Part shown: piece by piece, positions 24,910 through 61,664 of the stretch
Numbering within the stretch: the first letter of the stretch is position 1
How the letters are laid out: the number at the start of each line of letters is the position of its first letter
Assembly (NCBI GenBank): GCA_009746045.1
Contig: RPFO01000165.1
Coordinates: 6,612,036-6,676,035 of the forward strand
Length of the DNA stretch: 64,000 nt
Direction of reading: 5' to 3'
Source of the DNA: Mesostigma viride
Lineage: Eukaryota > Streptophyta > Mesostigmatophyceae > Mesostigmatales > Mesostigmataceae
The notes under the pieces: generated by a model
The model's input: only the letters and a program-made list of their open reading frames with translations
Told to the model about the DNA's origin: nothing
Databases searched by the model: none
Position numbers and translations under genes: made by a program

Positions 24910-25643
24910 TGTTGCACGGATGCAACATGCCATTTGTGGTATAAATTATCCGTCCCGGTCGATCGGCGCCGACCGTAATCCGGCGCCAGTGCCGAGGCCA
25001 TAGTATAGTTGGCAGCCGAGGCAATCCGTGTGGAAGTAAGTGTAGAAGTTTTGCTGACGAACTTGGCCTTTGCGCCGTAGGCAGACCTAGCGCCTGAACG
25101 GGAGTTACGGGACAGCCAAGTGGCACTGCACATGCGTTATGATGGTACCTACGGACATTTGGATATTTTTCAGGAGAGGCCTCTAGCCGTACTGGTCTTT
25201 AATGTGTTCTAGACGGTTCGAGAAGCCCGTCCCCGCGGACCTCACGTCATGCCTGGTTGGCAGCGCCAGGCGCAGCCACCAACGGGGACGAAGGGACAAA
25301 ATAGGAAGGCACGAGCTATGCCAGCAATCCGGACCTTGTATCGTAATTTACCACGTTGCTCTACAGATTATTTACCATCGCTTAATCCTGGAGTGTAAAT
25401 CTCCTGTGGGCTCGAGTGTGAATCCCTCGCCTACTGGGTGTAAGTCTTCCCGCATTGAGTGTTTTAATCTGTGTGGTAACATTGTAATATACGAAACCGG
25501 TTAACCGGGTTTGAGCTTATTCGTATTGTGTGACAAGTATTCTTAAGCCACCATCGTGCGCTGTGACGCATAGGAAGTCAAAGGTCTTTCGCATTCATTC
25601 TCAATCATTAAGGCGCTATTCTAAATAGCCATACGTGTTAAAC
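24910..25643 (+). repeat. gypsy-1 3' LTR
   Basis: Almost identical to 17179-17915. Observed differences include GTGGTATAA for GTGGTAATAA, a 2-base gap at GGCGCC(cg)AGTGCC and GGTTAACC for GGTTTTCC. Confidence 0.93.
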
Positions 25644-25647
25644 TAGT

Positions 25648-26220
25648 CTAGCGTGGGTTACACCTGAATAACTCGGAATCTGCTATCCGCCCGGACTACG
25701 TGAATGTAGCCCTGAATTCTAGCCAGTACGCGGAATTACTAGCTAGGCCCTAAATGCACAACTAGATAAATTATGCATGTACATGGAATGCACGAAGGGC
25801 GTTAGTGCAGCCCAGATTTGACCCCTGGTTCGGCAGACGAGTTTTACTCAAGTCGATTTCATTCCAAACCAAAGATAGGAAGCCATTGTCACCTACGACA
25901 TTTGTCCAAGACGGCGTGCATGCCAGCGGGTCGGCCGGGGGCCGAACCTCTAGCGCTGCAATTAATATCAGCCGTAGATGTACATAGTATCCGCCAGTCT
26001 GGCACCCGGTACCTGGCAGTCCCGGGTACAGACCAGTAACACACCAAACCGAAAGCAAAGCCACGGGTACCTGGGCCGGCTGATGGAATAACTCGGCCAA
26101 GTCCCCGAATCTAACATAATAACTATCGAAAGTCTCAAACAATATCAAAATGACTTTCGACTGACCAAACTAATTTATTTTAGGAATTGTTACGCCCAAA
26201 CATGGGTTAGGGCCGTAACA
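25648..26220 (-). repeat. gypsy-2 3' LTR, main piece
   Basis: Continues the 38 bp at 17141-17178. It matches 55196-55769 with a few differences. Inner end on the minus strand: TGTTACGGCCCTAACCCATG, which folds back on GGGCGTAACA (26188-26220). Frames inside it are not genes. Confidence 0.93.
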
Positions 26221-27617: not shown

Positions 27618-28317
27618 AGTTAACGCCAAGCGCATTGGCGTGATCCTGATTCGGCATATCTCTGCGATTCCAGCGGCACCGGAACGAGTTCATTCCGACA
27701 AGTATCAAGAAAGTTATGGCGTTCCGACTTCCCGGTCGCGCGCGAGCGCGAGCCGGCTGTTCTTCTAAGTCGGACGTGAATATTGGCCGACGGCATATGG
27801 GGTCGACAGTAATTCCTGGGCTGACAGGAATTAGGTGCTGAACCTACGACGGTATTGGGTTAATACGTCGTACGCAGGAAATAGGAACCTTGACCTGTGG
27901 TCTGGTGGTACCGCAGGCCTAGTCCTGGACTTCTAGGTGCAGATGCAATAATCACTGTGGTGACTGTACTCTGTGGTCACTGTGCCTGTATGGCAGACCT
28001 ACTGTATAGGAACTGGGCGCTGTACAGGTAGTGAATACTGTACCGGGGGTGTTATTACTGAGCAGGCCTCCTAGGCTGCTCAGGACTAGCAAGCACAGTG
28101 CACAAGTATATAAACAATAGGCCAATGCCATTTGGGCAGATCTCTTGCGAGCCCGCCTCACGTGTGTTGCCTTGACTTGGCAAACGCGTGTACAAGCCTC
28201 AAGTTTGTGAGCGCTGTAACATTATCCAATTTTAACAAAGCTCCGTTTCCAACCATATTCACACATTGCTGCATTGCAACCATATCCTTCACATTGCGTT
28301 TGCTAGGAACGTTAACT
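27618..28317 (+). repeat. copia-B left LTR
   Basis: AGTTAACG...CGTTAACT, so the outer 8 bp are perfect inverted repeats. The start also folds: ACGCCAA (27622-27628) with TTGGCGT. It contains a TATATAA-like element near 28106 (AAGTATATAAAC). The sequence after the LTR (CAAATTACAACC) does not begin with TGG, so the priming tRNA may pair internally. Confidence 0.93.
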
Positions 28318-28410
28318 CAAATTACAACCAGTCTCAGCGGAGCGGCCAGGAGGGTCGTTGCTGGTTGCGGTGTGCAGCGTTGACGACGCGAGGAGCTCGT
28401 CCGGTGGTGA

Positions 28411-29331
28411 ATGGTGCAGGAAGAACAACGGCAGCAGGATTTCCAGTTTCGGCAGTCTGCTGGGGGTTCGATTTCGCCTGAATTGCGTCGTGTCGTTCGA
28501 GATCTATCTTTATTGCTTGCAGATCGTCCGCCTGTTAATCGCAGCTTCGTGCAATTCGTCGACGACCAGGTCGAAGATTGGGGGCGAATTCTGCGGCACG
28601 TCCAAACCATCGTCATTCCGGAGCACCGGAGCATCGACGACCTCGAGCAAGAGCTTCACGGTTTGGTCGGCATCCAGACGGTGATTGCAGCAGTAGCTGA
28701 GCGGGTGCGGACGGAGTTGGCGGCGAGGCGAGGAGAGGCTGCGGAGGCAGCTGGCGCAGTGCGACACGAGTTCGTGCCGGCAGCAGCGGTTGCGGGTGCA
28801 TCACGTACTTTCGCAGGCGTCATCGGCGACGAGGGTGTTGCAGCGGGGCCAGTTAGGCGTGAACGACGCGGAGCGGAGCATTACAGGCGCCTTGCAGAGG
28901 TCGGGGCGACAGCGGAAGCCATCACCGGAGGACAACGCTCGGCAAGAGTCGGCAGGTTTCCGGAGCGAGCAAGGGTTCCTTTTCAGGAACTGCCCCAACC
29001 CCTTCGCGTTCGTGTGACGCGTTGGGAAGAGTTTGCCCCTCTTGATTACGATAGTGACCTTGAGGTGGGAGCAGGGGGCGTCGCTGGGCTAGGCGACGAG
29101 GCACTTGGCGACCACGAGGTGCCAAGATACAATCCGCGGGGTGCCAGCGACGGGTTGTCACCTGTCTACTATACCAACGGTGACGATTCTGTCATCGCGG
29201 GCCGACAGCGGGTCGACGACGGCGCAGCGGGTAGCAGGGTGCCAGAGCTGATTGTGGTGAGCGACGGCGACAGCGACAGCGACAAGGACAACCAGGACGC
29301 GCCTGGGGCCAACCGTGGTGGTCTTGCCTGA
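28411..29331 (+). CDS. copia-B ORF0, accessory protein upstream of gag
   Basis: 306 residues starting ATG at 28411, 94 bp after the LTR. The N-terminal two thirds look helical and charged (ISPELRRVVRDLSLLLADRP, SIDDLEQELHGLVGIQTVIA, AERVRTELAARRGEAAEAAG). The C terminus is acidic and disordered, with a Ser/Asp run (SDGDSDSDKDNQD). There is no zinc knuckle, protease or polymerase motif. Gag begins 102 bp downstream in a different frame. Family member A2 has a 261-residue ORF at the same place and C has a 197-codon one. Their sequences are hardly alike. The function is unknown. A separate 5' gene is not standard for Ty1/copia. Confidence 0.65.
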   Translation: MVQEEQRQQDFQFRQSAGGSISPELRRVVRDLSLLLADRPPVNRSFVQFVDDQVEDWGRILRHVQTIVIPEHRSIDDLEQELHGLVGIQTVIAAVAERVRTELAARRGEAAEAAGAVRHEFVPAAAVAGASRTFAGVIGDEGVAAGPVRRERRGAEHYRRLAEVGATAEAITGGQRSARVGRFPERARVPFQELPQPLRVRVTRWEEFAPLDYDSDLEVGAGGVAGLGDEALGDHEVPRYNPRGASDGLSPVYYTNGDDSVIAGRQRVDDGAAGSRVPELIVVSDGDSDSDKDNQDAPGANRGGLA

Positions 29332-29433
29332 GTGGTAACACTTGGCACTTTCCTTTCTTGTTCAGTAGCTTATATTGCTTTAATTGCTGCTTGGCCACTT
29401 GGCTGGCTGTAGCAGATCTGAACAGAGGCCATC

Positions 29434-29621
29434 ATGAGTGAGGGTGCTATTGACCAACACACGCGCCTTATGGGCTTTGCGCGGCGCGGCGCTGGGATGG
29501 ATGGACGAGATGGACGCGATGGACACGGTGGACGCGATGGACGCGGGGACGGCCAGGCGCTGGGAGACCAGGCTGCGGTGCCAGATGATCAGAGCCAAGG
29601 ATCGCAGGGCGGTCAGAACGC
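29434..29621 (+). CDS. gag: copia-B Gag, N-terminal exon-like piece (cut by element C)
   Basis: ATG at 29434 opens MSEGAIDQHTRLMGFARRGA, followed by a GMDGRDGRDGHGG repeat. The frame runs to the C insertion point and continues in the same phase at 38095: 188 plus 1000 bases make 396 codons, so C interrupts an otherwise open gag. The last five bases here are the TSD AACGC. Confidence 0.85.
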
Positions 29622-30079
29622 AGTTGGATGGAGACTAGGGACGACGAACAACTGCTGAAGCTGAAAGCGAATGATGATTGTATTATCAATAATACAATGA
29701 GAGAGCAATGAAAGCTGAGGGCTCAGAATGGAACGTCTGGGCAAACTCGGGTGCTGCGGCACTCCCCAGTGCTACGCCTATATGCCTATGGCGGTGCTAC
29801 CTGCAGCACCAACCAGTGGACAACTGTACACTGCAATGCCATGCGACCACGTCACTAGCAACCAGCTAAGACTCGGCCCGTCAGGCCCGGCTACACCGGA
29901 CCTGGCGGGTCGAGCTAGCACCTAGGAACAGTCTGGCACTAACCGCACATCGGTCCACATGACACCTCAGTACCGTACACCCTGCCGTACTGTACTGAGG
30001 TGTCCCGCTCAGCCGCGGTAGGCAATACGCGGCGCGCAGGCCGGAAATCCGTGTGTCAGCCTAAGCATCTCATCTAACT
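29622..30079 (-). repeat. copia-C 3' LTR
   Basis: Matches 37632-38089 except for eight mismatches, all within 29914-29991. It contains a 13-bp imperfect hairpin, CTCAGTACCGTAC (29966-29978) with GTACTGTACTGAG (29987-29999). On the minus strand a purine-rich GAAAGGAAAACATAATGGG (30080-30098) precedes it as polypurine tract. Confidence 0.93.
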
Positions 30080-30525
30080 CCCATTATGTTTTCCTTTCAG
30101 GTTGAAGGCTAGCGACTTCAAGCCTGACCCTGCCCAGCTAGGAGACTGACTCCAAGCTGACTGAGGTGCTGAGCAACTGACACCCATACTGCAACATCTG
30201 GACTGAAAAAGATGGGCCCCAGAACTCGTGCAATACTTGTGATGGCATCACGTTTAGCTCAACATGCCCGGGGAGTTCCTCCTCCTCGCGAGCTCACAAG
30301 GGAGATAGCTATGCCTGTCTGCCTATCCAGGGAGTGCATCACCAGCCAAGAGAGCCATTGTAAAAAAATGCCAAGGTAACCGTTTAAGAGGTTCCATGTT
30401 GTTCCATCATCATCGCCCACTCAGAGAAAAATACCCAGCCAGGCTGGGTCAACTGAGCTCAGGTTACCTGCAACCTGAGGAGTGACAGTGGACAGGTTTA
30501 TTGCACCCTGCACTGTCCATGTTGT

Positions 30526-30703
30526 ACCTGCACAACATGTGAGGACCAGCCACCCCTGCCCTGCACAGAGGGGGCTGAAGTCCGAGTGACAGGTGACAGG
30601 ACTATGACATCCTGGACCTGGCCACATTGCACCTGCACAACGTGTGAGACCAGCCACCCCTGCCCTGCACATGGGTGACTGAAGTCCTGGTGACAGGTGA
30701 CAG
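30526..30703. repeat. 105-bp direct repeat, two copies, in copia-C 3' UTR
   Basis: Copies start at 30526 and 30631 with ACCTGCACAACRTGTGAG, followed by CCAGCCACCCCTGCCCTGCA. They lie between the copia-C RNase H stop and its 3' LTR. Confidence 0.75.
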
Positions 30704-31156
30704 GAATATTTCATCCTGCACCTGTGCTGAGCACGTTGTACTAGACAACATGACAGCACCCATGCCTTTACTGCCACTGAACAGTAAGGCCAGGTGGCCC
30801 AGGATATCCACAGTGAACTGGGGTCCTGGGTAACCACCTGTCAAGGGAGCTTTGACCCTCCACTTGAATGGGGGCACCTGAGCCACTGAGCTCAAGGCCA
30901 ATCCACCAAGGCATACGCCCTAGTGGAAAAAGTGTGAGATACATCCCATGCCCACCTATGAAGGTGTGCATAACGAAATTCCATGGTGTTGAAAAAATCA
31001 AAACAGATTTTATTGGGCATAGGGCACGCAGATGTATGAAAACAGACTCCAACCAACCCCCCTTGCTGGAAGCCACAACCTACCCCTTGGACCTGCCCAA
31101 GGGGTACTGGGTGACCTAGGCGGCCCTGGTGAACAGGACCCTGCTAGGCGTCCCCC

Positions 31157-32600
31157 CTATGGGGCAGGGTTGCCTGCTTGCCATAGGGGTTCATCAAGTG
31201 GTACAACAGCTGTATTGTCAGCTGCCTGCTGAGGCACTTTAGTGAGTGCATCAGCAGCGTTGTGTTTGTCCTCCACGTGACGGGTGGACTCCCAGTAGGT
31301 GGACTCCTGTTTCAGGACCACCCAGTCAAGATCAGTGTGGACAGCATAGGGGTTAGCAAGGAAACTGAGGACTGACTGACTGTCAGTGAGCAAGTGTGCC
31401 ACCACCCCAGCATTGCTGCCTGCTTGCATCTGCAACCAAACCAGCACATGATTCAAGTACCTGGCATGAAGCACTGCTGACACCACTGCCCTGCACTCAG
31501 CAGCATTGCTGCTGACAGCCTTGCGTCTATGCAACCGGCTGTACCATGAAATGAGAGACAAGGGTGCATCATCATTCTGCACAAAATACAAGCCTGACTC
31601 CCTTGCCTGCAACTTGGTAATCTGCCTGGACTCCATGGAACTATCCATCATAGCTTGGATGTGAATGGTTTTGTGGAGATCCAAGGAGTGCAAGATAAGG
31701 GGAGGGCCTTCCTGGAGAGTTTTGGTGATGGCTTTGTGACCTACTTGCATCAAGACATCATCATCAACTCTGCTAACCACAGCCAGGTGAGGTGCACACG
31801 TTGAGCACAACCACCCCAGCTTGCCTCTAATGGTAGGACAGGCTCCAGGTTTGATTTTTGTTTGCAAAACCTCCAAGCAGCTGTGCATGTAATCATTGGG
31901 AGAGTAGAGTGCACACACCCACTGGTTTTGATGCTGCTGGAGTTGTAACATTGTGCCACAAAATTTTATGGCAGTGGTGCCCAGCTCTACTTGCTTGCCA
32001 ATCTCAAAATGCTGTGACACTTGTTGAATAAAATCATCCACAGCACGCCTTGGCCCAGCAATCAGCTGATCATCCCCATGCCACACAAAGGTGAGAATGC
32101 CATGAGGGTGTGGGACCACAAAGAAGCAAGGGTCTATGTCATCATATCTAGCCCCTAGCTTTTCAAACACAGCCTGAGCTGACATCCTGAAAATGCGAGG
32201 AGCTGATTGCAGCCCTTCAACACCTATGTTAGCTTTCAGGTACTGCTGAGGGATGTGTTTTGCCCAAACTCTGGGAGTGGAGACTACATACACCTGACCA
32301 TGCCACACTTGTTGTGCTATCTCAGGTGAGCCTTTCAGGAAAGCCCTTTTAATGTCTGTAGCCTTACATACATAGTCATCCCCATCATTGAGATGACCCA
32401 CAAAGACAGACAGCAAGATTTTTAGGGATGTTTGCTGAATGCCTGGCGTGTACAACTCTGCCTCTGTCAGATCAGTGGTGCCCTTGAACTCTGTCACACA
32501 AGGTCTAGCATGAAAATGACTGACCCATCTGCTGCTGGCTTATGTTTACACACAAACTTCAGGCGCAAGTGCTTGCACCCTGCAGGCTTTTTGTCAATAG
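31157..32600 (-). CDS. pol: copia-C Pol, reverse transcriptase and RNase H
   Basis: The main frame is 32497-31157 (446 residues). A short upstream piece (KHLRLKFVCKHKPAADGSV, about 32570-32510) is in another frame. Two frame changes thus separate protease and polymerase. Motif A is VCKATDIKRAFLKGSPEIA. The catalytic box reads FVWHGDDQLIAGP, with His in place of the usual Tyr of YVDD. RNase H shows AMMDSSMESRQ (D), SSNAAECRAVV (E), LLTDSQSVLSFL (D) and EDKHNAADALTKVP. The overall arrangement is that of Ty1/copia enzymes (RNase H at the end, ADALTK block). Reverse transcriptase and RNase H of B and A1 share the HGDD box. Confidence 0.85.
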
Positions 32601-33611
32601 GTGTGACAGGGGAGTATGAGAAGGACTAAGAGGATCTGGCACTACCCATTCTTCCCTGGCCTTGTTAAAGGCCTCCACCCATTTTAGGAATCCTATGTGT
32701 GTGCGACAGTCTTGCTCTATCTGTTCATAAGAAAGAGGAGACATTTTAGCCACATCATGCTTGCCCAATCCAAATGAGTTGGGATGAAGTTTTTGGTTGT
32801 GAACCAAGTCTGCCACACAGGGTTCTTGCCCTGGGGCATACTTGGGTGTAGCAAATTTTACAGAAGCAATGTTGGTGTTAAGAAGTTTTTCAAGAGAAAT
32901 TTTGAAATGATTCAGATCAACACCACCCATGTCCTGGATGGATAGTCTATCACTGGAGATGAGGACACCAGGGTAACAGAGAAAAGGATCCCCCAACAAA
33001 GCATTCCCTTTATAACCTTCCAAGACCTGAAAAGGAGTGGGGATACCGAGTATAGTCAACATGACCTGACCTAATACCTTGAGGGATGACTGCCCTGAGA
33101 AATCAGCCACATGGTGCCAGGGTGAAGGTTCCAAAGGCAAATGGGGCACAGCCAGGGCACTGATAATGCTGACCTGGGCTTGTGTGTCCACTGCAACCAT
33201 AAATGGGCTATTGTCATTCTGCCCAACCTTCCCCACCTTAGCTGATCCTGCAGCAGTTTGAGCTTTGGCTCTATGAGCTGCTTGTAAAATGCGAACAGCG
33301 TCTGCTAGGCTGCGTTTGGAAGGTGCAGCTAGTGGCTGAGCTATGTTCACACTTGAAGAGGTGATAGGTTGCTGATCACCTGTTTTGCCAATGTGACCCT
33401 CTGCTGCAGGGGGCCAATCCTGCAGTGACTGCCTGCAATCATCAAGGGTGACCTGGGTGTCACAGTGGGTGTGGCTCTCACACTCACCAGTGGGTGTTCC
33501 AAACAACCACTCACTGGGCAACGCTGGGATGCCAGGCAACTGTACAGGGCTGTCGGCCAACAGCTCTTCCTCCTCTGCCACGTCTGACACAGTTGGAAAA
33601 TACAATTTCAT
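32559..33611 (-). CDS. pol: copia-C Pol, protease region following integrase
   Basis: 350 residues. ATG at 33611 overlaps the integrase stop as ATGA, in the -1 frame, so coupling or frameshifting is possible. The middle holds a retropepsin-like block: FMVAVDTQAQVSIISALA (active-site region, near 33190), a strand-rich stretch and ALLGDPFLCYPGVLIS. The expected D-T/S-G has become D-T-Q-A-Q. After it, LSYEQIEQDCRTHIGFLKWVE recurs in copia-B as LTYDQLVQEMSS...FEAW, linking protease to polymerase. In ordinary copia elements protease lies before integrase. None is found there in C. Confidence 0.75.
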   Translation of the reverse strand: MKLYFPTVSDVAEEEELLADSPVQLPGIPALPSEWLFGTPTGECESHTHCDTQVTLDDCRQSLQDWPPAAEGHIGKTGDQQPITSSSVNIAQPLAAPSKRSLADAVRILQAAHRAKAQTAAGSAKVGKVGQNDNSPFMVAVDTQAQVSIISALAVPHLPLEPSPWHHVADFSGQSSLKVLGQVMLTILGIPTPFQVLEGYKGNALLGDPFLCYPGVLISSDRLSIQDMGGVDLNHFKISLEKLLNTNIASVKFATPKYAPGQEPCVADLVHNQKLHPNSFGLGKHDVAKMSPLSYEQIEQDCRTHIGFLKWVEAFNKAREEWVVPDPLSPSHTPLSHLLTKSLQGASTCA

Positions 33612-34579
33612 CCTGTGAGGTGAACACCTGTGAATTTTCCCGTGTCATTGTGTTTAACTAACACTGTCCTGCCAGTGGTGTTAAACTTTAGGATGGTGGC
33701 TGGCCCATGCCAGGTACCCACCTTGCCTAGTCCCGACTCCTTGTAGAATAGGACCTGATCCCCTTCTCTGAAGGTGGGACGTGGATGCTTTGCATCCTTG
33801 ACAGCTAACCTGCTAGCTGTCTGTGCTCGCTGTGCGTTGTATAGGGCTAGTACCTCAGGTGGATAAATGCCTGCATGCAATCCATCTGGTGTAATGACCA
33901 CCCCTTGTGGGGTTTTCATGAGTGGCCTCCTGTTGAGGACTTGGCACAACCTGGTGGACCACAGAGCTCTGTCAGCATATGACCCACTGTCAGCCAGCAG
34001 ATTGCCATCTTCTTTGGCTACAAGGGTTTTAATGGACCTGATGGCCCTTTCAATAATGCCTTGCCTCTCATGATCTTCTAGCCCAGCCAGATCAATAGCC
34101 TCACACCCTGGTTCATTGGCAAGACACGTGAACTGCTGATCCAGTAACAATGCCTCCACAGGGTAGTACCTGGCCTGAGCAATCAAGAGAGCCCTGAGCA
34201 ACTGTGTCTTGTCCATTCCAGGTAATGGTTCAATGGTTGTGTACCTTGACCATGCATCTTTAAGTGCCAAGTAAGATTGTCCTTTGATATGAAAGACATC
34301 TCCTACCACCCTGCCCTTGCTCTTAGGTGGGGTAGCTACATGCCACTTAGGGGGTTTGGGTGCATTGAACTGACAATGCTGGCAGTGGGATCTGACCACC
34401 TGGCATGCACGTCTGAGTGCTGCCCCCCCTATTGCTGCTGCCACCACCTCTGCACTCACTTCATGCCCATAAAGGAAATGCAACTGCAAAGCAAGCTCCT
34501 GAAAACTGATATGAGCATCCTCTGGGGGACACTCTGCACACCTTGGGAACCATAGATGTGAAGGTTGGTTTAGAGACAT
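33608..34579 (-). CDS. pol: copia-C Pol, integrase
   Basis: 323 residues from 34579. The frame overlaps the end of gag and is +1 to it. The HHCC finger is LQLHFLYGHEV...CQHCQFN. Catalytic residues: D in VVGDVFHIKG, D in ALLLDQQFTC, E in RQGIIERAIRSIK. The last two are 29 residues apart instead of the usual 35. The C-terminal part has FREGDQVLFYKESGLGKVGTWHGPATILKF, a GKGxWHGPA-type module typical of integrase C-terminal domains. It ends at TGA 33608. Confidence 0.85.
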   Translation of the reverse strand: MSLNQPSHLWFPRCAECPPEDAHISFQELALQLHFLYGHEVSAEVVAAAIGGAALRRACQVVRSHCQHCQFNAPKPPKWHVATPPKSKGRVVGDVFHIKGQSYLALKDAWSRYTTIEPLPGMDKTQLLRALLIAQARYYPVEALLLDQQFTCLANEPGCEAIDLAGLEDHERQGIIERAIRSIKTLVAKEDGNLLADSGSYADRALWSTRLCQVLNRRPLMKTPQGVVITPDGLHAGIYPPEVLALYNAQRAQTASRLAVKDAKHPRPTFREGDQVLFYKESGLGKVGTWHGPATILKFNTTGRTVLVKHNDTGKFTGVHLTG

Positions 34580-34881
34580 AATCTTCTGAAACCAGCTGTA
34601 GCACCTTTCCAGAACTGCTCACTGCTCTGACAGTGGGGCATGCAGATGAAAGAGGTGAAGCAGGCACACTCAAGCCAGCATGAGAGGGAGACTCACACTT
34701 CTTGCCGTAAGGAGGCCGCTTGCAGTCCTTGGGGTCACCGTGGGGCGGCCCGTGGCACTTGTGGCACAGGACGTCCAAATGCCCCAGCTCGTCCACGTTC
34801 TTGCGGCAGGTGGGCCGCAGGTGGTACTTCATGCCACAGCGGGTGCACCGCTGAGAAGACTTGTCCTCCTTGTCCTGCTTC

Positions 34882-34958
<77 letters not shown>

Positions 34959-35618
34959 GCTGGAGCTGCCCCCCTTGGAGGGAGACTGCCCCTTACCCTT
35001 GCCCTTGCCCCAGCCCCTGCCCTTGCCCTTGCCCTTGCCCTTGCCCTTAAACATTTGTCCCAGCAGGGACTTGACTTCTGCCATAGTGACAGGTCTCTTG
35101 CTCCTGTCTTCCCTCTCCCTATCCTCCTCCTCCCTCTCTTCCCCCCTGACCCTCTTTACAGAGGTGCCCATGGCCCCCTGGCTAAGGGGAGCCAAGGCCA
35201 GCTTGATATAATCCAATGCCTCCTTCATGTCCTCCCAGTACTTTGCCATTCCTGTTGCAAGCATAGCGTAGGTGTTTTTGTCAAGTTTGAGTTTCTCAAG
35301 GAAGGAACGCAGCAAGAACTTGTGATCTAGCTGCTGGACATCAGGACGTGCTTTGATGGCTAGCTCATATTTCTTTGTCTCAGCCACATAGTCCACTGAT
35401 GTGACCCTGTATTCCTCTACCCACCTGAATGCCCCATAGATGTCCACAGATGAGGGGGTGGAGAGGAGGTCAGTTAGCTCCTTCATGAAAGCCTCCCAAA
35501 CTGCCCTAGCCTGCGTGTCCTGCCACTTGGGATACCTACGCTGGAAGACAAGAATGAGATTCTGAATCTGAGAGAGGACTGATGGTAAAAATCCCCCTGC
35601 ATGAGAGATCCAAACCAA
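34461..35618 (-). CDS. gag: copia-C Gag, capsid and nucleocapsid part
   Basis: 385 residues. A helical capsid-like region (PKWQDTQARAVWEAFMKELT, VDIYGAFRWVEEYRVTSVDY, HKFLLRSFLEKLKLDKNTYA) is followed by a Lys/Gly repeat (KGKGKGKGKGRGW), a long Asn run encoded by a GTT/AAC microsatellite, and two zinc knuckles: CTRCGMKYHLRPTC (CX2CX4HX4C) and CHKCHGPPHGDPKDC. The tail overlaps integrase. The N-terminal portion lies in another frame at 35962-35483, so gag is broken by at least one frameshift. Confidence 0.8.
34883..34958. repeat. (GTT)n microsatellite, about 25 units
   Basis: Encodes the poly-Asn tract of copia-C Gag on the minus strand. Long Val, Leu and Cys frames on the plus strand are artefacts of it. 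Confidence 0.95.
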
Positions 35619-35962
35619 TTCTTGACATTCAGTTCCTCCCTAGCCAGCTGCAGAGAGAGAAGTGCATGATTCCCCTGCTCCCTAGTATACCCCTCAGGCA
35701 GCCCCCTGACATTAATCCTATCCACAGGACGGTTTTCATTGTAAGTGGGCAACCTAGAGGGGGATGCAGGGGGAGAGGGAGAAGATGGTGTTGCTGCTGC
35801 AGCATTCACAGGAGAGACATGCTGAGAGGGAAGTGCTACTTGAGTGAGCTGAGCAGGATGGGCAAACATGGGCTGTGTAGGAGGGTTAGACAACATAGGG
35901 GTGGGCTGGTGGGGGTGTGAGTGTGTGTCACTTCCCGCCTCCTGCTGCGGGCCTCCTCCCAA
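35483..35962 (-). pseudogene. gag: copia-C Gag, N-terminal part in another frame
   Basis: 159 residues from MGGGPQQEAGSDTHSHPH. A Pro/Ser-rich leader is followed by RINVRGLPEGYTREQGNHAL and LQLAREELNVKNWFGSLMQG, which runs naturally into the capsid region at 35618 after a frame change. A probable single-base indel lies near 35600. Confidence 0.6.
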
Positions 35963-36777
35963 TCATGGAAGGTGGGAGAGAGGGACACTTCATCGTCAGT
36001 AGGGTTAGTAAGATCATGATGCAGCCAGGTAGGCAGCCACCTACCCGCCCCTCTCAGGATGGCGTTTGTAGGAGCTCCAGACGCACCAGACGCACCCTGC
36101 TGCCCTGCACCCTCCTCCCTGAGAGGAGAGCCTGCAGGGCAGGCAGCAGGTCGTCGCACACCCTGCGTGTGCCCTGCTTGGAGGTTGGGCAAGCCCAGGA
36201 TGTGCGTGATGATTGCACACACCAGGCTGCCCGCCTCCGCGACGTGCATCTGCTGGCTCCTGTCGGCCAGCCCACGGAAGGAGGCTGTGGCTGTCTGTAT
36301 GGCACGCCACACGGCCTCATCACCCAGGGTGATGAAGTCGCGACCTTCCAGGTCGCCCTCCAGCAGTGCTGGTTGCTGCCCAGCTGGTGGGACCCTGAGG
36401 CCCCTCCGGCCCTGCCAGGGACTTGTCCTTGTTGCGGCTAGAGGGGGCCTGCCCCCCAGAGCCGCTGGAGGTGCCCGTGACACCCTCCATGGGGGCTGCA
36501 TCCCCCGCCAGCGCCGGAGGCGCCGGCGTCGCTGCCGGGGTCCCTGCGACCCCGGGCGCTTGTGTCGCCGCCGGGGTCCCTGCGACCCCGGTGGCCTCCT
36601 CAGCCACCTGGCCCCCCACGCTGGGCGGGGGAGCCTGCGGCTGAGGTTGGACCCTCTGACCTGCCAGAGGGTCCTGGGTGGCTTCACCACCCATGGGCGT
36701 GTTGGGGGCGTCTGCCGCCCCGCGCTCCGTCGCAGGCGGCATCGCAGCCGCCTCACGCCTATCCGGGCCCCAGCCAA
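35836..36777 (-). pseudogene. copia-C ORF0/gag linker segment
   Basis: The informative part (about 36390-35900) reads ALLEGDLEGRDFITLGDEAV, QTATASFRGLADRSQQMHVA and SLVCAIITHILGLPNLQAGH. It continues the frame of 36961-36320 after a shift near 36390. It is either the end of ORF0 or the start of gag; no motif decides. Confidence 0.4.
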
Positions 36778-37588
36778 CTGGCGTGACTTGGGGCCACGGC
36801 CCCAACGGAGTCAGCGTGATCTCCTGTCGGGCGACCACGCGCAGCGCCTCTCTCTGACGCTGCCTGGACGCCCACTGATCAACAGTGCCGGGGTTGTGCC
36901 TCGGCCGATTGGCGAAACAGTACAGCCAAACTGCCACCTGAACCAGTGACTGCATCCTCAAACGCCCCTCGATCAGCGTTTGTCCGATGAACCTCTATCG
37001 CGTGTATCTCCTCATCTGGAAGCACTGAAAACGTTGATGTATGATCCGGCCGTTCACCGAAATGAACGCCGGGATGTCGTCCTCCCCAATGGGGAGAAAA
37101 TGGGGTGGGCGCCCGAACGCGACCGGGGGCGGAACATGTGCCCCATACCGGTCAATGTCCATGATGGCCATCTGTCGGCCCACGGAAAGATTACCAGACG
37201 TCGCAGGTGTCTGCGACGAAAGCTCAAGCGAAGGCCGAGGCCTCGCAGGCTGCACCTCCCCATCCTCCTCCGAGGAATCACTCCGCTCACGACCCCCGTC
37301 ACCTGCGACGGGGGAATTACGTGCCCGGGGGACCTGCCCCCCAGGTGCCATGGCGGACGAACCGCCAGTGGCAAACGGACGACCGCTCGCCATCCCCCGG
37401 GCGCCGGGCCCCACCTGCGGGGTCCGACGCCTGGGGTGGTCTGCGACCACCGTGCGGAAGGTGACGTTGGGCGTCACCCTCGCATCGTTGGTGGAGGGCG
37501 TGCCCTCCGGCGAAAGTCGGGGTGAAGTGCGCCTGGCAGGCGCCTTCCCATTGTTGTTGTTGCCGTTGTTGCCGTTGTTGGAAGCCAT
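36320..37588 (-). pseudogene. copia-C ORF0, interrupted by one TAG
   Basis: The ATG at 37588, 44 bp after the LTR, opens MASNNGNNGNNNNGKAPARR. 197 codons lead to a TAG at 36997-36995, after which the same frame stays open to 36320 (RFIGQTLIEGRLRMQSLVQ and on). This looks like one ORF of about 420 codons with a single nonsense or read-through codon. Composition is Pro/Ser/Gly-rich with an acidic stretch (RSDSSEEDGEVQ). It occupies the same place as ORF0 of copia-B and A2. Function unknown. Confidence 0.55.
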
Positions 37589-37615
37589 ATTTTTTTTGAT
37601 TTGCGAAAAAAATAT

Positions 37616-37631
37616 CGAACTTTTCAGTCCA
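37616..37631 (-). promoter_or_regulatory. copia-C primer-binding site
   Basis: On the minus strand TGGACTGAAAAGTTCG directly follows the 5' LTR. It begins with the canonical TGG. The tRNA is not identified. Confidence 0.6.
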
Positions 37632-38089
37632 AGTTGGATGGAGACTAGGGACGACGAACAACTGCTGAAGCTGAAAGCGAATGATGATTGTATTATCAAT
37701 AATACAATGAGAGAGCAATGAAAGCTGAGGGCTCAGAATGGAACGTCTGGGCAAACTCGGGTGCTGCGGCACTCCCCAGTGCTACGCCTATATGCCTATG
37801 GCGGTGCTACCTGCAGCACCAACCAGTGGACAACTGTACACTGCAATGCCATGCGACCACGTCACTAGCAACCAGCTAAGACTCGGCCCGTCAGGCCCGG
37901 CTACACCGGACCTGGCGGGTCGATCTAGCACCTAGGAACAGTCTGGCACTAACTGCACGTCAGTCCACCTGACGCCTCAGTACCGTACGCCCTGCCGTAC
38001 AGTACTGAGGTGTCCCGCTCAGCCGCGGTAGGCAATACGCGGCGCGCAGGCCGGAAATCCGTGTGTCAGCCTAAGCATCTCATCTAACT
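37632..38089 (-). repeat. copia-C 5' LTR
   Basis: On its own strand AGTTAGATGAG...CCATCCAACT, 458 bp. Flanked on the outside by AACGC (38090-38094). Confidence 0.93.
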
Positions 38090-38094
38090 AACGC

Positions 38095-39094
38095 GCCAGC
38101 CGCAGATCAAGCGGCGCCTAAGCGGCCGACCGTGGCTGAGGGGTACGCGGTGCTAGGCCAGTTTCAGTCCATCAAGGACAATTGGCAGCCCCGGGACGCT
38201 GAGAGGATGTTAGAGGACATGAACTTGTACACGGAGATATACACCGGTGACAAGCTTCGCATCCTAGCGTCTAGTGCCTACATAAGGCAGTCGGCGAGGC
38301 GGCTGTTCAAGTTTGTTCGGGAGCGACACGCGGCGGGGGACACCTGGGCGGCGTTTATGACGCGACTCAGGGTGTTCCTGAGTGACAAGAGGACCATAGA
38401 TGGGTCCCACCTGAAGCAAGAATACCTGGACTACAAGCCCATCAAGGGGCAGCTAGTGGTCCACGCCTTTGAAGACTTCGTCAAGCTGAGGGAGGACGCC
38501 ATGGCCAAGGGATTCTTCGTCGCAGATCGGATGGCCATGGGCGACTTTCTCAAGTCGCTGCAGCTGGATCCGGTCACCATGGATAATGTGACCATCCACA
38601 TGCGACAGGTCCATGGCTGGGCAGCCATGACGGACCAGTTGTATGAGTGTTTCAGCGGCAAGTACGTGGGTGGTAAGCGCCCTCGTCAAGGTGACGAGGA
38701 GGCCGCTGAACCTACGGTTAAGTCCATGAGGGGATCGGGCCACGGGGGCCCAGCGCCCTCGAGAGGGCCTGAGACCTCTTCAAGGGGTCGAGGAAGGTCC
38801 AGGAGGGGGCGTGACAGAAGGGCTGGACGGGGGACCCCGCCGAAGTCGGGACATCCACAGTCCCAGTTTGACTTCAAGAGGGTGGGTGGTCCTCCCAAGG
38901 CTGGGCCCAGCAGTGGGACCTCACGGGACATCAGTCAGGTGGAATGTTATTTCTGCCAGGGGAAGGGTCACTTCAGGAATGAGTGTCCCTCGTACCTGAG
39001 GCAGGAAGGTCAGAGCAAGCCAGCTCAGGGTGGCAGCAAGGACAAGGCTGGTCCATCCCAGGATAAGGGCAAGGGCAAAGCTGCTGATCATTGA
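38095..39094 (+). CDS. gag: copia-B Gag, main part
   Basis: Continues the 29434 frame after element C. The capsid-like region includes LGQFQSIKDNWQPRDAERML, RRLFKFVRERHAAGDTWAAF and DFVKLREDAMAKGFFVADRM. A Gly/Arg-rich basic stretch (SSRGRGRSRRGRDRRAGRG) is followed by one zinc knuckle, CYFCQGKGHFRNEC. The stop is TGA at 39092. The integrase frame is +1 to gag and overlaps its end (open at least from 39030). The layout and the FKRVGG...knuckle region match the Gag of copy A2 at 63400-63600. Confidence 0.88.
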
Positions 39095-39620
39095 CTTGAG
39101 CCTGCACACATCCCTGTACCCTGGAGGGTGCCCCCAGGGGTGTGTAATGTATGTAGCTGCTAGTGACGGCAGTGAGGGGCAGCCCCATGCTCTAGTGAAA
39201 GAGCCTATTGGACACGATGGGGCAAGCTTGGTTACCACAGAGAGTATGCCAGCTGTAGCTGCAGTGGTTACTCGCCAACGTGCCCGCCATGGCGGTGCTG
39301 AGCCTGAGGTAGGACCTGGTGATGTGGACCCAGGTGGATCTCAGAAGCATTCTGACCGTGCAGGACTGGCACAGGATGGTCAGGATGAGGATAGGGCTGG
39401 AGACAGTCTGACAGGCACGACCCTGGTGCCTCCTGTACATAAGGGATCTGTACATACCTTGAGTGCTAGTAATGACAATAAAAGATTTTCTCTCTTGTAT
39501 GACATTGCCTCAAGGTTGCATACCATGTTTGGCCATGCAGCTCAGTCTTTGCAAGTTGCTAGACGGCTGGGAGGAAGTGAGTTGTACTCCATCTGCCAAC
39601 AGGTTGCTCAAGCTTGCTGA
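39030..39620 (+). CDS. pol: copia-B Pol N-terminal part with integrase HHCC finger
   Basis: The frame is +1 relative to gag. After a variable linker it has RFSLLYDIASRLHTMFGHAA...QQVAQAC. The two His (HTMFGH) and the Cys pair formed with the next segment (C-L-K-C) make the integrase zinc finger. The frame stops at TGA just inside the finger, and the match continues in frame 2 at 39614, so a one-base indel near 39617 breaks pol. I see no protease motif in this stretch. Confidence 0.75.
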   Translation: MAARTRLVHPRIRARAKLLIIDLSLHTSLYPGGCPQGCVMYVAASDGSEGQPHALVKEPIGHDGASLVTTESMPAVAAVVTRQRARHGGAEPEVGPGDVDPGGSQKHSDRAGLAQDGQDEDRAGDSLTGTTLVPPVHKGSVHTLSASNDNKRFSLLYDIASRLHTMFGHAAQSLQVARRLGGSELYSICQQVAQAC

Positions 39621-42600
39621 AGTGCAGGCTAGTTGCTAGAAAGCCCAAGCAGTCTCATGCCAGGAATCCTATTTTGCAGCCAGGCCATGTGCAGGTAGAT
39701 ATTCAGAGAATCAGGGGTTTGAAGCTGCTGGTGGCAGTGGACAGATATACCAAGTACAAGACCCTAGAGATCCTGCCTGACATGGAGAAGCCTACATTGA
39801 TTGCTGCTCTGAAGTTGACAAGGAGCAGGTACCCTGGGTTGGAGTTGTTGCAGTGTGACATTCAGTTTGAGTGCTGTGAGAACCTGCCAGAGTTTCCAGA
39901 GTTGCTGATTACACCCAGGGAGAGCCACGGCCAGCAAGGGGTGGTGGAGAGAGCCATCCAAGAGATCAAGACTGTGCTGCTGGTGGAGAGGATTCCAAGG
40001 ACGTCATCTGCCATTGTGACATCTGCATGGCTACGTTCTGTGGAGGATAGGCTGAACCTCAGGACTCCCATGTTCTTTGGTGACATTGCCATCAATCCTC
40101 TTATGCTGCATACCAGGATGCTGCCAGCTGATGCTGAGCAGGCATGGAAGGAGAAGCTAGAGGCCAAGTTCCTCAAGCTGAGGCAGAAAGACAAGGGCTG
40201 GAGTGTCCTAGAACCTAACGTTGGACAACAGGTTGTTGTGTGGAAGGAACCAAGCTTTCCAGGGAAACGTGGCAGCTGGCATGATGGGGTGGTGACCCGA
40301 GTAGAAGCCGCTGGCCATAAGTGCTGGGTGGCCATTGATGGCTCCCAAGCAGTGCACCGTCTGTCCTGGTCAAAGATCCGTCCCCGGGGAGGTAATCAAG
40401 GAGACCTCTTCCAGGTGCCCGCTGGTGTACAAGGCGGGGGTGACGTGGAGCTTCCTGATCAGGGTGCTACAGCTGTATCGAGCCCTCAGGGTGACCCTGG
40501 CCCGGCCCCTGGGGTACCTTCACATACGGTGGTTGGGCAAGCAGGCGGACAGGCTGCACCTCCGGAACGGCCCGACACCAGGCCTAGGGGTGTGCGTCTA
40601 TCAGATATTGTACAGGCTTTGCAAAGAGCCAAGAAGGAGCCTAAGGTGTCCAAGCTTGTCCAGTTGGATGAACCTGAGGTAGCTGCCATGGAGATAGATA
40701 CCAATGCACAGGTTTCTGTCATGGGACCTCAGCATACAGGAGAACTGCTGGTCGGAGAACCAAGTTGCCCCTGGGTGTCTGATTTCAGTGGTAGGACGCA
40801 TCTAAGGGTGTTGGGAGAGGTTACTGCCCCTGTCATGGGTGTGGATGTGACCTTCCTTGTCCTAGAGGACTATGATGGCCCTGTGATTTTGGGTCAGAAT
40901 TTTCTGGGCAATCCTGGGATTTCTATCAGAGCTACAGCTCTGAGAAGAGATGGCTGGGGGATGATTCCCCTAGAAAATTTCAGGACAACATTTCCAGTCA
41001 GGTGCAGGGCCAAGCCGGTCAAGGGTGTAAAATGGGATGAAGGGGAGGTGCCCCCAGCGGCCAGTTTGGTGATTCCAGCTGTGTTGCACCCCAGCAGTAT
41101 TGGCATAACTCACAGGAGCCTTGCTGCACACTCTCCTTTGACATATGACCAGCTGGTCCAAGAGATGAGCTCGCCTACTTTGTTTGAGGCTTGGAAGCTC
41201 GCCTTCTCCAAGGCATTGGAGGAGTGGTTGCAGTTTGAGTGTGCTGCACCAACAGACAGACGTCCCCCAGCATCAAGGAAGCTTGCTTTGAGATTTGTGC
41301 TGAAGAGGAAGGTTGTGGATGAGGTATCAGTGCCCCATGTCAGGCCTGTCCTGAATGAGTATCACGGCACGGGGAGTCTGCCAGGAGAGGAGCTGTACAC
41401 GCCAGGGATGCTACACGACACATGGAGAATTTTGCTATGTCTCTACGTGGGGTTGCTGAACAGGGGAGCAGCTATGTCATCAGTGCTGCTGGACTTCAAG
41501 AGGGCATTTTTAAAATCTGATCCAGAAGTGGCCAGGAGGGTGTGGAAGCAGGATGAGCCTTACTGTGTTGAGGTGCCTGCCATCTGGAAGCTGGAGCTGC
41601 ATCAACAATTCCTGGTTATTCTGAAGGGCCTGGAAGGACTCAGGTCGAGCCCAATCATCTGGAGACTCACGCTGCAGGAAGCTCTGATCAGTGAGTGTGG
41701 CTTGAGAGTGTCTTCAGTTGATCCCTGTTTGCTGCTGGCCCAATGGGAGGGTCTGCCAGTGTATGCTAGTTTGCATGGAGATGATCTGCATTTGCTAGCC
41801 CCCACGACCTGGCTGAAGAAGTTTATTCCTGTCATCAGTGGCAAGTTTTCACTGGGCAAGGAGCTGTGGCAGGAGCCCAACAAGCCTGTAGTGTTCTGTG
41901 GAATGCAGGCTACCCTGTTCAGGAGGGACGGGGAGTGGAGTATCAGGCTTCAGGCTGGAGGAGATTATAAACAGACCATTGTGAAGGCCTTGCCAGAGAA
42001 GATCACCCAGGCTGCAGGACCTGAGTTGAGAGGCATGTGGGCCTGGTTTGCCAGCATCTGTGGTCCGTCTTTGATGGTCCATAGCAGAATGCCTGATGAG
42101 GTGCTTGAGGATGAGAAGCCTCGAGTCATAGCCCGGTTGGTGGAGAGTACCCCTGATCTGATTTTGTCTGGGATTGACTTTGCCCAGCCTATCACCTTGG
42201 AGATCTTTGTTGACAGTTCCATGGATGCTCGCCAGGTTACCAAGGTCAGGGGGAGATCTGCTGCTCTGTTTGCTTTTTATCAGAGCAGGGCAAGTTTGTT
42301 CAGCTGGTACAGCAGACTGCAGAAGAGGGTCTGTATCAGTTCAGATGTGGCAGAATGCAGGGCCATATGCGAGGGGATCCAGTCCAGCCTGTACATAAAG
42401 GAGTTAATGCTGGAGCTGGCTTCAGTTACCCCTTGGACCTTGCAGATGGAGACGTTGTTGCTAACAGACAGCATGGGTATGGTCCAGTTTGTTCACAAGC
42501 AGCTGGCCAGAAGCCGGGACCTGGATTATTTGTTGCTGAAGGAGTTGGCCAGTTTGGTTGACTTGAAGCATATCCCTGGCGAGGAGAACCCTGCTGATGC

Positions 42601-42691
42601 ATTGACAAAGCTGCCACACAAGGCCCCAGCCCAGTACAATGTACTGAGGAAGCTCATGAATGCTGACTGTCAAGTCGGTCTATCTGTCTAA
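39614..42691 (+). CDS. pol: copia-B Pol: integrase core, protease, reverse transcriptase, RNase H
   Basis: 1025 residues in one frame. Integrase core: D29 (VQVDIQRIRG), D82 (LLQCDIQFEC), E112 (QQGVVERAIQEIK), spacing DD29E. The C-terminal module has FPGKRGSWHDGVVTRVE. The protease-like domain follows: EIDTNAQVSVMG (Asp at residue 362) and VILGQNFLGNPGISI. Reverse transcriptase then has LRFVLKRKVVDEV, SVLLDFKRAFLKSDPEVA (motif A), LEGLRSSPIIWRLTLQEALI (motif B) and SLHGDDLHLLAP (motif C, HGDD). RNase H: IFVDSSMDARQ, SSDVAECRAICEG, LLTDSMGMVQF, ENPADALTKLPHK. The order integrase then protease within one continuous frame is the key oddity. Ordinary copia runs protease, integrase, reverse transcriptase. 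Confidence 0.9.
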   Translation: MLKCRLVARKPKQSHARNPILQPGHVQVDIQRIRGLKLLVAVDRYTKYKTLEILPDMEKPTLIAALKLTRSRYPGLELLQCDIQFECCENLPEFPELLITPRESHGQQGVVERAIQEIKTVLLVERIPRTSSAIVTSAWLRSVEDRLNLRTPMFFGDIAINPLMLHTRMLPADAEQAWKEKLEAKFLKLRQKDKGWSVLEPNVGQQVVVWKEPSFPGKRGSWHDGVVTRVEAAGHKCWVAIDGSQAVHRLSWSKIRPRGGNQGDLFQVPAGVQGGGDVELPDQGATAVSSPQGDPGPAPGVPSHTVVGQAGGQAAPPERPDTRPRGVRLSDIVQALQRAKKEPKVSKLVQLDEPEVAAMEIDTNAQVSVMGPQHTGELLVGEPSCPWVSDFSGRTHLRVLGEVTAPVMGVDVTFLVLEDYDGPVILGQNFLGNPGISIRATALRRDGWGMIPLENFRTTFPVRCRAKPVKGVKWDEGEVPPAASLVIPAVLHPSSIGITHRSLAAHSPLTYDQLVQEMSSPTLFEAWKLAFSKALEEWLQFECAAPTDRRPPASRKLALRFVLKRKVVDEVSVPHVRPVLNEYHGTGSLPGEELYTPGMLHDTWRILLCLYVGLLNRGAAMSSVLLDFKRAFLKSDPEVARRVWKQDEPYCVEVPAIWKLELHQQFLVILKGLEGLRSSPIIWRLTLQEALISECGLRVSSVDPCLLLAQWEGLPVYASLHGDDLHLLAPTTWLKKFIPVISGKFSLGKELWQEPNKPVVFCGMQATLFRRDGEWSIRLQAGGDYKQTIVKALPEKITQAAGPELRGMWAWFASICGPSLMVHSRMPDEVLEDEKPRVIARLVESTPDLILSGIDFAQPITLEIFVDSSMDARQVTKVRGRSAALFAFYQSRASLFSWYSRLQKRVCISSDVAECRAICEGIQSSLYIKELMLELASVTPWTLQMETLLLTDSMGMVQFVHKQLARSRDLDYLLLKELASLVDLKHIPGEENPADALTKLPHKAPAQYNVLRKLMNADCQVGLSV

Positions 42692-42877
42692 AAGCTGAGA
42701 GCTGGGTGCTTAAGTCTCTGGATATCAGGCTGGGAGCTTGATTGTACATAATCCTGAGCACACCTTGAGGGGTGAGACATGTCTCTGGTGTGGGAATGTC
42801 TGACATTGTCTCTGATGGAGAGATGTCTATCTGGGGTTTTCATCTCAGTCTGAGGTTTCCCCAGATCTGTGGTTTGT

Positions 42878-42899
42878 GGGCGGGGTTCGATTCCCTGGT
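42878..42899 (+). ncRNA. tRNA T-arm-like motif in copia-B 3' UTR
   Basis: Contains CGGGG-TTCGATT-CCCTG, a five-pair T stem with the B-box consensus GGTTCGATTCC. The 22 bases are identical to 47078-47099 in element A1. No acceptor, D or anticodon arm is seen around it, so this is not a tRNA gene. A tRNA-mimic arm is one possibility. Confidence 0.4.
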
Positions 42900-43309
42900 G
42901 CCGTCTTAAGGCGGAGTTTCACGGACTGGCTGACCCATCCACCATGCTGGTGAGGTGGCGACAGGTCCCCTGATTTTCCACGGTTGGAACGAGTATGGGA
43001 GCTTGTGTTTTGCATGTGCTTCGCGTAGATGTTGTGTCTGGTTCGATAAGGGGCAGCAGACCGGCGCCGACTCCCGTCTGGGGGTCAGCAATGTTTTCTG
43101 ATGAGCTGTTGTGGGTGATCTGTGGGGTTTCGCCTAAGGTCCTGAAGGTTGTACATACTTCTCAAGTTCTTAGCTGAACACCTATGGGCTGCCACAGTTG
43201 GCCAACCTCTTGTACATGGGTAACACAACGAGCCTCCCGTGAAGGGATAGGGACTCATTGTAATTTGTTTGTGCTCCTGAACCAGTATGGGTGCTATGTA
43301 CATATAATA

Positions 43310-43431
43310 AGGAATCCAAGCTGACTGTCATGCCCAGTGGGTTGTGACTTGTAGTCGGGGAGGATGTCCAGGAATCCAAGCTGACTGTCATGCCCAGTGG
43401 GTTGTGACTTGTAGTCGGGGAGGATGTCCAG
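43310..43431. repeat. 60-bp tandem repeat, two copies, copia-B 3' UTR
   Basis: Two exact copies of a 60-bp unit starting AGGAATCCAAGCTGACTGTC at 43310 and 43370. Confidence 0.95.
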
Positions 43432-43480
43432 TACCCATTGTGTGTGTTTGTATGTAGACTTGTGTGAGCTGCTACAGCTC

Positions 43481-43498
43481 AAGAAAAGAAAGGATTGG
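43481..43498 (+). promoter_or_regulatory. copia-B polypurine tract
   Basis: AAGAAAAGAAAGGATTGG directly precedes the right LTR. A1 has nearly the same tract (47732-47750). Confidence 0.8.
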
Positions 43499-44198
43499 AG
43501 TTAACGCCAAGCGCATTGGCGTGATCCTGATTCGGCATATCTCTGCGATTCCAGCGGCACCGGAACGAGTTCATTCCGACAAGTATCAAGAAAGTTATGG
43601 CGTTCCGACTTCCCGGTCGCGCGCGAGCGCGAGCCGGCTGTTCTTCTAAGTCGGACGTGAATATTGGCCGACGGCATATGGGGTCGACAGTAATTCCTGG
43701 GCTGACAGGAATTAGGTGCTGAACCTACGACGGTATTGGGTTAATACGTCGTACGCAGGAAATAGGAACCTTGACCTGTGGTCTGGTGGTACCGCAGGCC
43801 TAGTCCTGGACTTCTAGGTGCAGATGCAATAATCACTGTGGTGACTGTACTCTGTGGTCACTGTGCCTGTATGGCAGACCTACTGTATAGGAACTGGGCG
43901 CTGTACAGGTAGTGAATACTGTACCGGGAGTGTTATTACTGAGCAGGCCTCCTAGGCTGCTCAGGACTAGCAAGCACAGTGCACAAGTATATAAACAATA
44001 GGCCAATGCCATTTGGGCAGATCTCTTGCGAGCCCGCCTCACGTGTGTTGCCTTGACTTGGCAAACGCGTGTACAAGCCTCAAGTTTGTGAGCGCTGTAA
44101 CATTATCCAATTTTAACAAAGCTCCGTTTCCAACCATATTCACACATTGCTGCATTGCAACCATATCCTTCACATTGCGTTTGCTAGGAACGTTAACT
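43499..44198 (+). repeat. copia-B right LTR
   Basis: AGTTAACG...CGTTAACT, 700 bp. It differs from the left LTR at one base by eye (GGGAGTG for GGGGGTG near 43928). Confidence 0.95.
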
Positions 44199-44831: not shown

Positions 44832-45243
44832 AGTTAACGTAAAGGATTTACGTTAGATGGATAGAGATTGTTACGCTCTTTCCAACGGCACCTTGAACGC
44901 CTCATTTGGTTAAGGAACGTAAAAGTTATGACGTTTCCTAGGCTGTGCCGACAGTACCCGGCGCGCCACTGTGGGCGCGTACGGACACAGGATGTACAAG
45001 TGTCACTTTGATAGTCCGCAGGACGTTGACAGGACTTGTACAGGACTTGATGGTCAATTGATAGGTAGGCGCACTGTAGCGCGCCAGGACCTATGAGACA
45101 ATTGATGCTGAGTAGTGTACGGATAGGTCCACAGGACTAGCCGTATGGACAATTGATAGATCTGCGCGCCAAAGGCGTGCCAGAGTCTGTGTAATCAATT
45201 GATTGACAGTTCAGCTGTGACAGTGCAGCTGAATACTTGGACA
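44832..45243 (+). repeat. copia-A1 left LTR, 3'-truncated
   Basis: Begins AGTTAACGTAAAGGATTTAC. Nearly identical to 47751-48160 (two differences seen). Similarity fades after CTTGGAC near 45242. Confidence 0.9.
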
Positions 45244-45268
45244 CAGCCCTATCAACTACCAAGGCCTG

Positions 45269-47077: not shown

Positions 47078-47099
47078 GGGCGGGGTTCGATTCCCTGGT
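47078..47099 (+). ncRNA. tRNA T-arm-like motif in copia-A1 3' UTR
   Basis: Same 22 bases as 42878-42899, with GGTTCGATTCC in a stem-loop. Flanking sequence is unrelated between the two elements, which makes the identity stand out. Confidence 0.4.
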
Positions 47100-61637: not shown

Positions 61638-61664
61638 CGTATTACAATCTTCGTACCAAGAAAA

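Follow-up and report, generated by a model that had tools for sequence, protein, structure and literature searches.

Integrase ahead of a retropepsin-like domain in copia-like retrotransposons of Mesostigma viride

The elements and the order of their domains

The DNA considered here is a stretch of 64,000 nucleotides from the streptophyte Mesostigma viride (contig RPFO01000165.1, positions 6,612,036 to 6,676,035), referred to below as ‘the window’. It contains several retrotransposons bounded by long terminal repeats (LTRs), among them elements in which integrase lies upstream of a retropepsin-like domain, with reverse transcriptase (RT) and RNase H after both. The first of these, copia-B, is complete from LTR to LTR and occupies positions 27618–44198 of the forward strand. 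Its 5' LTR (27618–28317, ends AGTTAAC...GTTAACT) and 3' LTR (43499–44198, with a purine-rich tract just before it) differ by one mismatch in 701 aligned columns, and the target duplication is the 5-bp sequence GTACG. Between the 5' LTR and gag is an open reading frame (ORF) of 306 amino acids (aa) with no Pfam match (28411–29331). The gag gene is interrupted by a second element, copia-C; the portion 3' of the insertion (38090–39094) has a CCHC knuckle (zf-CCHC, E-value 1.1e-4, over the cut-off) and ends with TGA. It is followed by a frame that contains the H-x4-H finger of integrase and no protease motif (39030–39617), and then by a frame of 1025 aa (39614–42691). This last comprises the integrase core and C-terminal module (39614–40390, by family alignment); a retropepsin domain (40625–40969) with the putative catalytic motif DTNAQ from about 40697, assigned by motif and profile, and with a fold predicted for its family; and, within approximate bounds, RT (41276–41983) and RNase H (42161–42613, by profile). 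The RT is homologous to those of copia-C and copia-D, which match RVT_2, and the profile of its family matches canonical copia RT. The initial annotation read the entire order in this one frame; that is correct for the integrase core, protease, RT and RNase H, but the finger lies in the preceding frame, because the window copy is broken.

Copia-C lies on the reverse strand (29622–38089), and is also complete, with paired LTRs of 458 bp and the target duplication AACGC. Its gag, with a zinc knuckle, spans 34461–35618; its integrase, with finger, core and C-terminal part, 33608–34579 (rve, E 0.004, below the cut-off; family alignment to PDB); the frame with its retropepsin domain, DTQAQ from about 33188, 32559–33611 (gag-asp_proteas, E 0.032, below the cut-off; motif and profile); and its RT and RNase H, 31157–32524 (RVT_2, 6.9e-6, below the cut-off). 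For both elements, integrase was assigned through the same family alignment, in which 46 of 56 matched PDB rows were retroviral integrases. The boundaries first reported for the copia-C integrase (34579–33608) and protease (33611–32559) hold; the RT, placed from about 32600, starts later, its frame (listed as 32497–31157) beginning at 32497 and its similarity at 32524. The two copia-C LTRs differ at eight positions, as against one in copia-B, which could be taken to mean that copia-C is older than its host. We rejected this, as a simple nest forbids it; all eight differences fall within 78 of the 458 columns, and a conversion or recombination tract is therefore the better reading.

A third family is represented twice on the forward strand. 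Copia-E starts with its 5' LTR at 61023 and continues through the end of the window (64000) for another 4.8 kb (locus L031), where its 3' LTR is found (L031:4790–5375). A frame of 989 aa (L031:213–3179) contains finger, integrase, protease and most of the RT; the end of the RT, and RNase H, are in the frame after it. Copia-D (44832–48337) is a deletion derivative that kept only LTR sequence and an RT–RNase H region 98.8–100% identical to that of copia-E. A fourth lineage, P0001, is a single frame of 1214 aa on an ENA contig of 6224 bp, again in the order integrase, protease, RT. P0001 was the single relative to emerge from protein searches of 5.8 billion sequences, in each of which the best 8000 candidates were scored; a hop protein at E 2.7 was disregarded. 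Relatives were not found in viral contigs, scanned twice. The 38 scored matches to P0001 in the M. viride genome are only 63–64% identical to it (67% for the window copy), so its source is either a different genome or a portion of this one that was not assembled or not scored.

The domain order does not depend on the window copies. The genome searched comprises 440 Mb in 2243 contigs, and the copy numbers obtained are lower bounds. Copia-B gave 45 matches. Besides the window copy there are 44, on many contigs, with stop-free frames of 1068–1198 aa (1196 aa in 32 of them). Thirty of the 45 loci were fetched and translated on the locus plus strand, and frames longer than 1000 aa were present in 14, not counting the window copy, the match in the other loci being on the opposite strand; the commonest sequence, shared by six of those 14, reads finger, integrase core, protease, RT and RNase H in one frame. 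Copia-C gave 116 scored matches with open frames of 360 to 1826 aa. Its intact order was read in one copy (L032), where a frame of at least 1587 aa holds gag, the CCHC knuckle, integrase, protease and RT, with RNase H about 0.7 kb further on in a different frame. Integrase, protease and RT, with RNase H after them, thus follow one another in four lineages, and the genome-wide search that was proposed as a check upholds the order in intact copia-B frames and in copia-C L032. Copia-B and copia-C, whose domains align pairwise in identical order, had been presented as two independent elements. Both have the order, but they are homologous (protease 42%, integrase 32% and RT 37% identical), and a single ancestral rearrangement common to both therefore accounts for it.

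A gag-TGA-pol arrangement in a single frame was found by pattern-matching on both strands in 21 of the 30 fetched copia-B loci (19 with TGACTTGAG and two with TGATATGAG); the window copy is among the remaining nine. The TGA (39092–39094 in the window) has C or T next. To judge from the sequence, this lone stop between in-frame gag and pol is likely to be read through.

Several other features of the locus may be recorded here. The C-terminal part of the integrase (about 40260–40390) has a weak likeness to Agenet/Tudor domains (Pfam Agenet, 0.0094–0.077; PHF1 Tudor rows, 0.33–0.5), and could be a chromatin-reading module or simply an SH3-like integrase tail. Copia-E has an ORF of about 300 aa between its 5' LTR and gag (61566–62450), as copia-B does; it, too, has no Pfam match. 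A direct repeat of 579 bp, 99.5% identical, at 25643–26220 and 55191–55769, resembles a pair of LTRs belonging to a reverse-strand gypsy element (gag/pol 54083–48685, integrase end near 44738–44399). Copia-D and copia-B appear to have inserted into that element; with copia-C inside copia-B, this makes a nest (25643–55769). Copia-E, in turn, seems to lie within what we take to be a Penelope-like element, with a presumed RT-like ORF before it (59505–60935, reverse strand) and a presumed GIY-YIG-like ORF after it (L031:5399–5971).

Relation to ordinary copia elements

Ordinary copia elements of the same genome served as a control. RVT_2 found 150 scored places (E 5e-50 to 6e-41), of which four were read; two of these (L034 and L036) are of the same family, leaving three families, L033–L035. 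All three encode a copia protease (WVLDSAASSHM or WVVDTGATYHM), then finger, integrase and RT, and match Pol_BBD, rve, SH3_retrovirus and RVT_2 over the Pfam cut-offs. The order that the initial annotation ascribed to Ty1/copia, with protease before integrase and RT, is thus present in each. In L033 and L034 the protease active site is D-S-A-A-S-S-H-M instead of D-S-G.

Profiles of the rearranged lineage were compared with these control proteins, with E-values computed for a nominal 10,000 sequences. The four-lineage RT profile matches all three ordinary copia RTs (4e-7 to 7e-4). The RNase H profile matches one at 2e-4, with E 11 and 87 for the remaining two; each of the three frames reaches the end of the fetched stretch and is perhaps cut. 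The integrase and protease profiles match none of the three, even with filters off. Gypsy proteins of the window were not matched by the RT and RNase H profiles (two proteins) or the protease profile (the one protein that contains a protease), and the integrase profile finds them at chance level (E 980). Among Pfam families, RVT_2 is the best hit of copia-C, copia-D and copia-E (8e-7 to 7e-6, under the curated cut-off), and reaches 0.014 in P0001. Pol_BBD, which marks the copia-type protease, and SH3_retrovirus were not found in the rearranged proteins scanned.

The lineage therefore has an RT of copia type, LTRs and short target duplications (GTACG and AACGC), but not the copia order of protease, integrase, RT and RNase H; nor does it have a gypsy-type RT or the gypsy order, in which integrase is last. 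As the integrase and protease profiles miss ordinary copia elements, the label ‘copia’, and the initial description ‘copia-like’, rest on RT and RNase H. We do not file the lineage as Ty1/copia, because the Pol order that defines that group was tested for and found to differ. The foremost alternative goes further, and regards the lineage as a separate, deep LTR superfamily that shares with copia only RT and RNase H. The silence of the integrase and protease profiles, and the confinement of Pol_BBD and SH3_retrovirus to the ordinary copia proteins, speak for it. Against it are the RVT_2 matches of copia-C and the copia-D/copia-E family, although P0001 matches weakly and copia-B not at all; the RT profile, which finds ordinary copia RT and not that of gypsy; the position of integrase before RT, as in copia; and the finger, which starts with the H-x4-H spacing of ordinary copia elements. 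On balance we think a separate superfamily possible, but rather unlikely.

The domain between integrase and reverse transcriptase

Loose pairs of retropepsin motifs occur once each in copia-B pol, copia-C pol and P0001, in every case between integrase and RT. In copia-B the motif scan took in all three sense frames between the LTR and integrase; it also covered copia-C 5' of integrase, copia-D, and as much of copia-E as lies within the window. No such pair was found upstream of integrase in these stretches; the strict pattern D-T/S-G matched nowhere in any scanned stretch. A Pfam search of copia-B gag, of residues 1–643 of the copia-C frame and of the two ORFs 5' of gag detected no aspartic protease, and that of P0001 placed one at 557–628 only, behind integrase. 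One Pfam row in a low-complexity part of the upstream copia-C stretch (E 1.1) was attributed to chance; it concerns the transmembrane region of a vacuolar protease. The earlier observation that gag and integrase are not separated by a protease motif is thereby confirmed. An ordinary copia protease upstream, which Pfam detects at 2e-9 to 4e-15 in this genome, would by this measure not have been missed.

The profile neighbors of the central domain are DDI1, DDI2 and ASPRV1, in a register that sets the invariant Asp upon the catalytic Asp of DDI1 and ASPRV1. The predicted fold matches only retropepsin-like peptidases among the rows listed, DDI1 best. The prediction thus supports a retropepsin fold, as had been proposed for the DTNAQ/DTQAQ domain. 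Asp and Thr are invariant in all four lineages, whose stretches are 33–59% identical to copia-B. Identity between lineages is 38–63% for protease, 30–58% for integrase and 37–77% for RT; since the protease figure is of the order of that for integrase, and below that for RT, the domain is under selection. Alignment of the protease with the two gypsy proteases of the window gives no clear match (hhalign probability 0.7%, E 0.079; pairwise z –0.8 to 2.8), although it falls into the correct register.

A number of results weigh against this interpretation. For integrase and RT, every Pfam score is below the curated threshold, and copia-B has no match to either family. The protease profile matches in PDB, at E 0.14–0.9, are confined to DDI1, DDI2 and ASPRV1, and none is significant alone; in one protease search, one of six PDB profile rows was a helicase. 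Pfam gag-asp_proteas scores 0.03–0.24, and does not match copia-E. A first AlphaFold model of the copia-B protease, from three sequences, had a predicted local-distance difference test (pLDDT) of 37.8 and was not used; in the second prediction, three of five models were at pLDDT 42–45. The best Foldseek E-value is not under 0.001, and template-modeling (TM) scores by query length are 0.37–0.47. In place of the triad D-T/S-G are D-T-N (copia-B, copia-E and P0001) and D-T-Q (copia-C). And since Pfam likewise failed to detect the protease in the full-length copia-B frame of 1196 aa and in the copia-E frame, its silence upstream of integrase is limited evidence, stronger against an ordinary copia protease than against a divergent one.

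The altered triad, common to all four lineages, suggests another possibility: that the fold is retropepsin but the enzyme dead, with maturation by an ordinary copia or gypsy protease acting in trans, or with cleavage needless and the fold kept for structure. The genome is rich in ordinary copia elements, and gypsy elements of the window encode proteases. But the invariance of Asp and Thr across such divergent lineages fits a working enzyme, and D-S-A stands in two of the three ordinary copia families examined, which have long open frames as well, so the third position of the triad is variable in this genome. We consider a dead enzyme unlikely. Less probable by far is that the domain is some other beta-rich module, the true protease being elsewhere or lost. 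The weak protease scores, and the moderate model confidence and TM-scores, would allow this; the fold matches, all of them retropepsin-like among the rows listed, the register of the Asp and the failure of the motif scan and Pfam to find another candidate in the upstream stretches tell against it. Finally, a false order created by nested insertion, frameshifts or assembly error might be suspected of window copies that are nested in one another and split over several frames, but is already refuted by the 44 further copia-B matches on many contigs, and by the continuous frame in each of copia-C, copia-E and P0001.

Origin, significance and comparison with known elements

We conclude that these elements very probably form a copia-like LTR lineage whose Pol reads integrase, retropepsin, RT, RNase H through a single ancestral move or replacement of the protease; four lineages, long frames, the fold match and the in-genome control bear out the original proposal of integrase upstream of protease. 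One rearrangement would have taken place in a common ancestor, before copia-B, copia-C, copia-E and P0001 split. Either the protease was relocated from ahead of integrase to behind it, or the old copia protease was lost and another retropepsin taken in. Because the Pol_BBD signature is missing from the protease, whose nearest neighbors are DDI1-like retropepsins, we regard relocation and replacement as equally plausible. A more specific version is also possible, though we would not call it probable: that a deep branch beside Ty1/copia lost its protease and gained, between integrase and RT, a retropepsin of DDI1-like or gypsy-like type that works with D-T-N/Q, so that Pol order is no fixed mark of an LTR superfamily.

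In other respects the elements would work like a Ty1/copia element. Gag and Pol would be made from one reading frame, which in copia-C is continuous and in copia-B probably involves low-rate read-through of the TGA. The Gag-Pol precursor would enter the particle, where two protease domains may pair within the precursor and cut on both sides, freeing integrase on the amino side and RT–RNase H on the carboxyl side. The cDNA would then be inserted with a 5-bp duplication.

LTR superfamilies are both defined and detected by the order of their Pol domains. PMC6317226 gives the copia order as GAG-PROT-INT-RT-RH; it also describes a large plant survey in which elements were classified by similarity and order, and those of unexpected order removed as likely wrong predictions, so lineages such as this one could be discarded by design. 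The integrase-protease-RT order was not found in the titles or abstract openings of the literature searched, a search outside which most subscription papers fall, and is not reported in the accessible part of PMC12440569. One sentence in the Belpaoviridae profile of the International Committee on Taxonomy of Viruses places Pseudoviridae integrase upstream of protease (PMC8742986). We take this as a slip for ‘upstream of RT’, as the order in PMC6317226 contradicts it; the Pseudoviridae profile lists PR, INT and RT-RH, without stating this as an order (PMC8515867). A third order, in many near-identical copies, shows that elements which multiplied recently can have the protease between integrase and RT, and suggests that the enzyme set of LTR elements is rearranged more freely than the usual classification assumes. 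The lineage is a natural test of how far maturation depends on protease position, and its changed triad offers a means of testing how much variation the retropepsin motif tolerates.

Among known systems, the elements resemble Ty1/copia (Pseudoviridae) in their RVT_2-type RT, integrase ahead of RT, H-x4-H finger, LTRs and 5-bp duplication, and perhaps in their RNase H. They differ in that the protease is behind integrase and is not of Pol_BBD type, the SH3_retrovirus module was not found, and the closing pair of the finger is C-x-C in copia-E and P0001 and C-x2-C in copia-C. LTRs usually end TG...CA. These ends are given for plants in PMC3701649; here, instead, the LTRs of copia-B (27618–28317) and copia-C (29622–30079) end AGTT...AACT, and that of the copia-D/copia-E family (44832) starts AGTTAAC. 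With Ty3/gypsy (Metaviridae) they share gag-asp_proteas, the best Pfam family of the protease, which matches both window gypsy proteases too, but they differ from gypsy in RT and RNase H, neither of which matches. Gmr1-like gypsy elements, with integrase before RT and protease still first, are a precedent for a moved integrase. DDI1 and ASPRV1 are the best profile neighbors of the protease (DDI1 is also the best in fold) and, like it, have A-Q after the active-site triad; that triad is D-S-G in these proteins and D-T-N/Q here, where the domain is embedded in a retrotransposon polyprotein.

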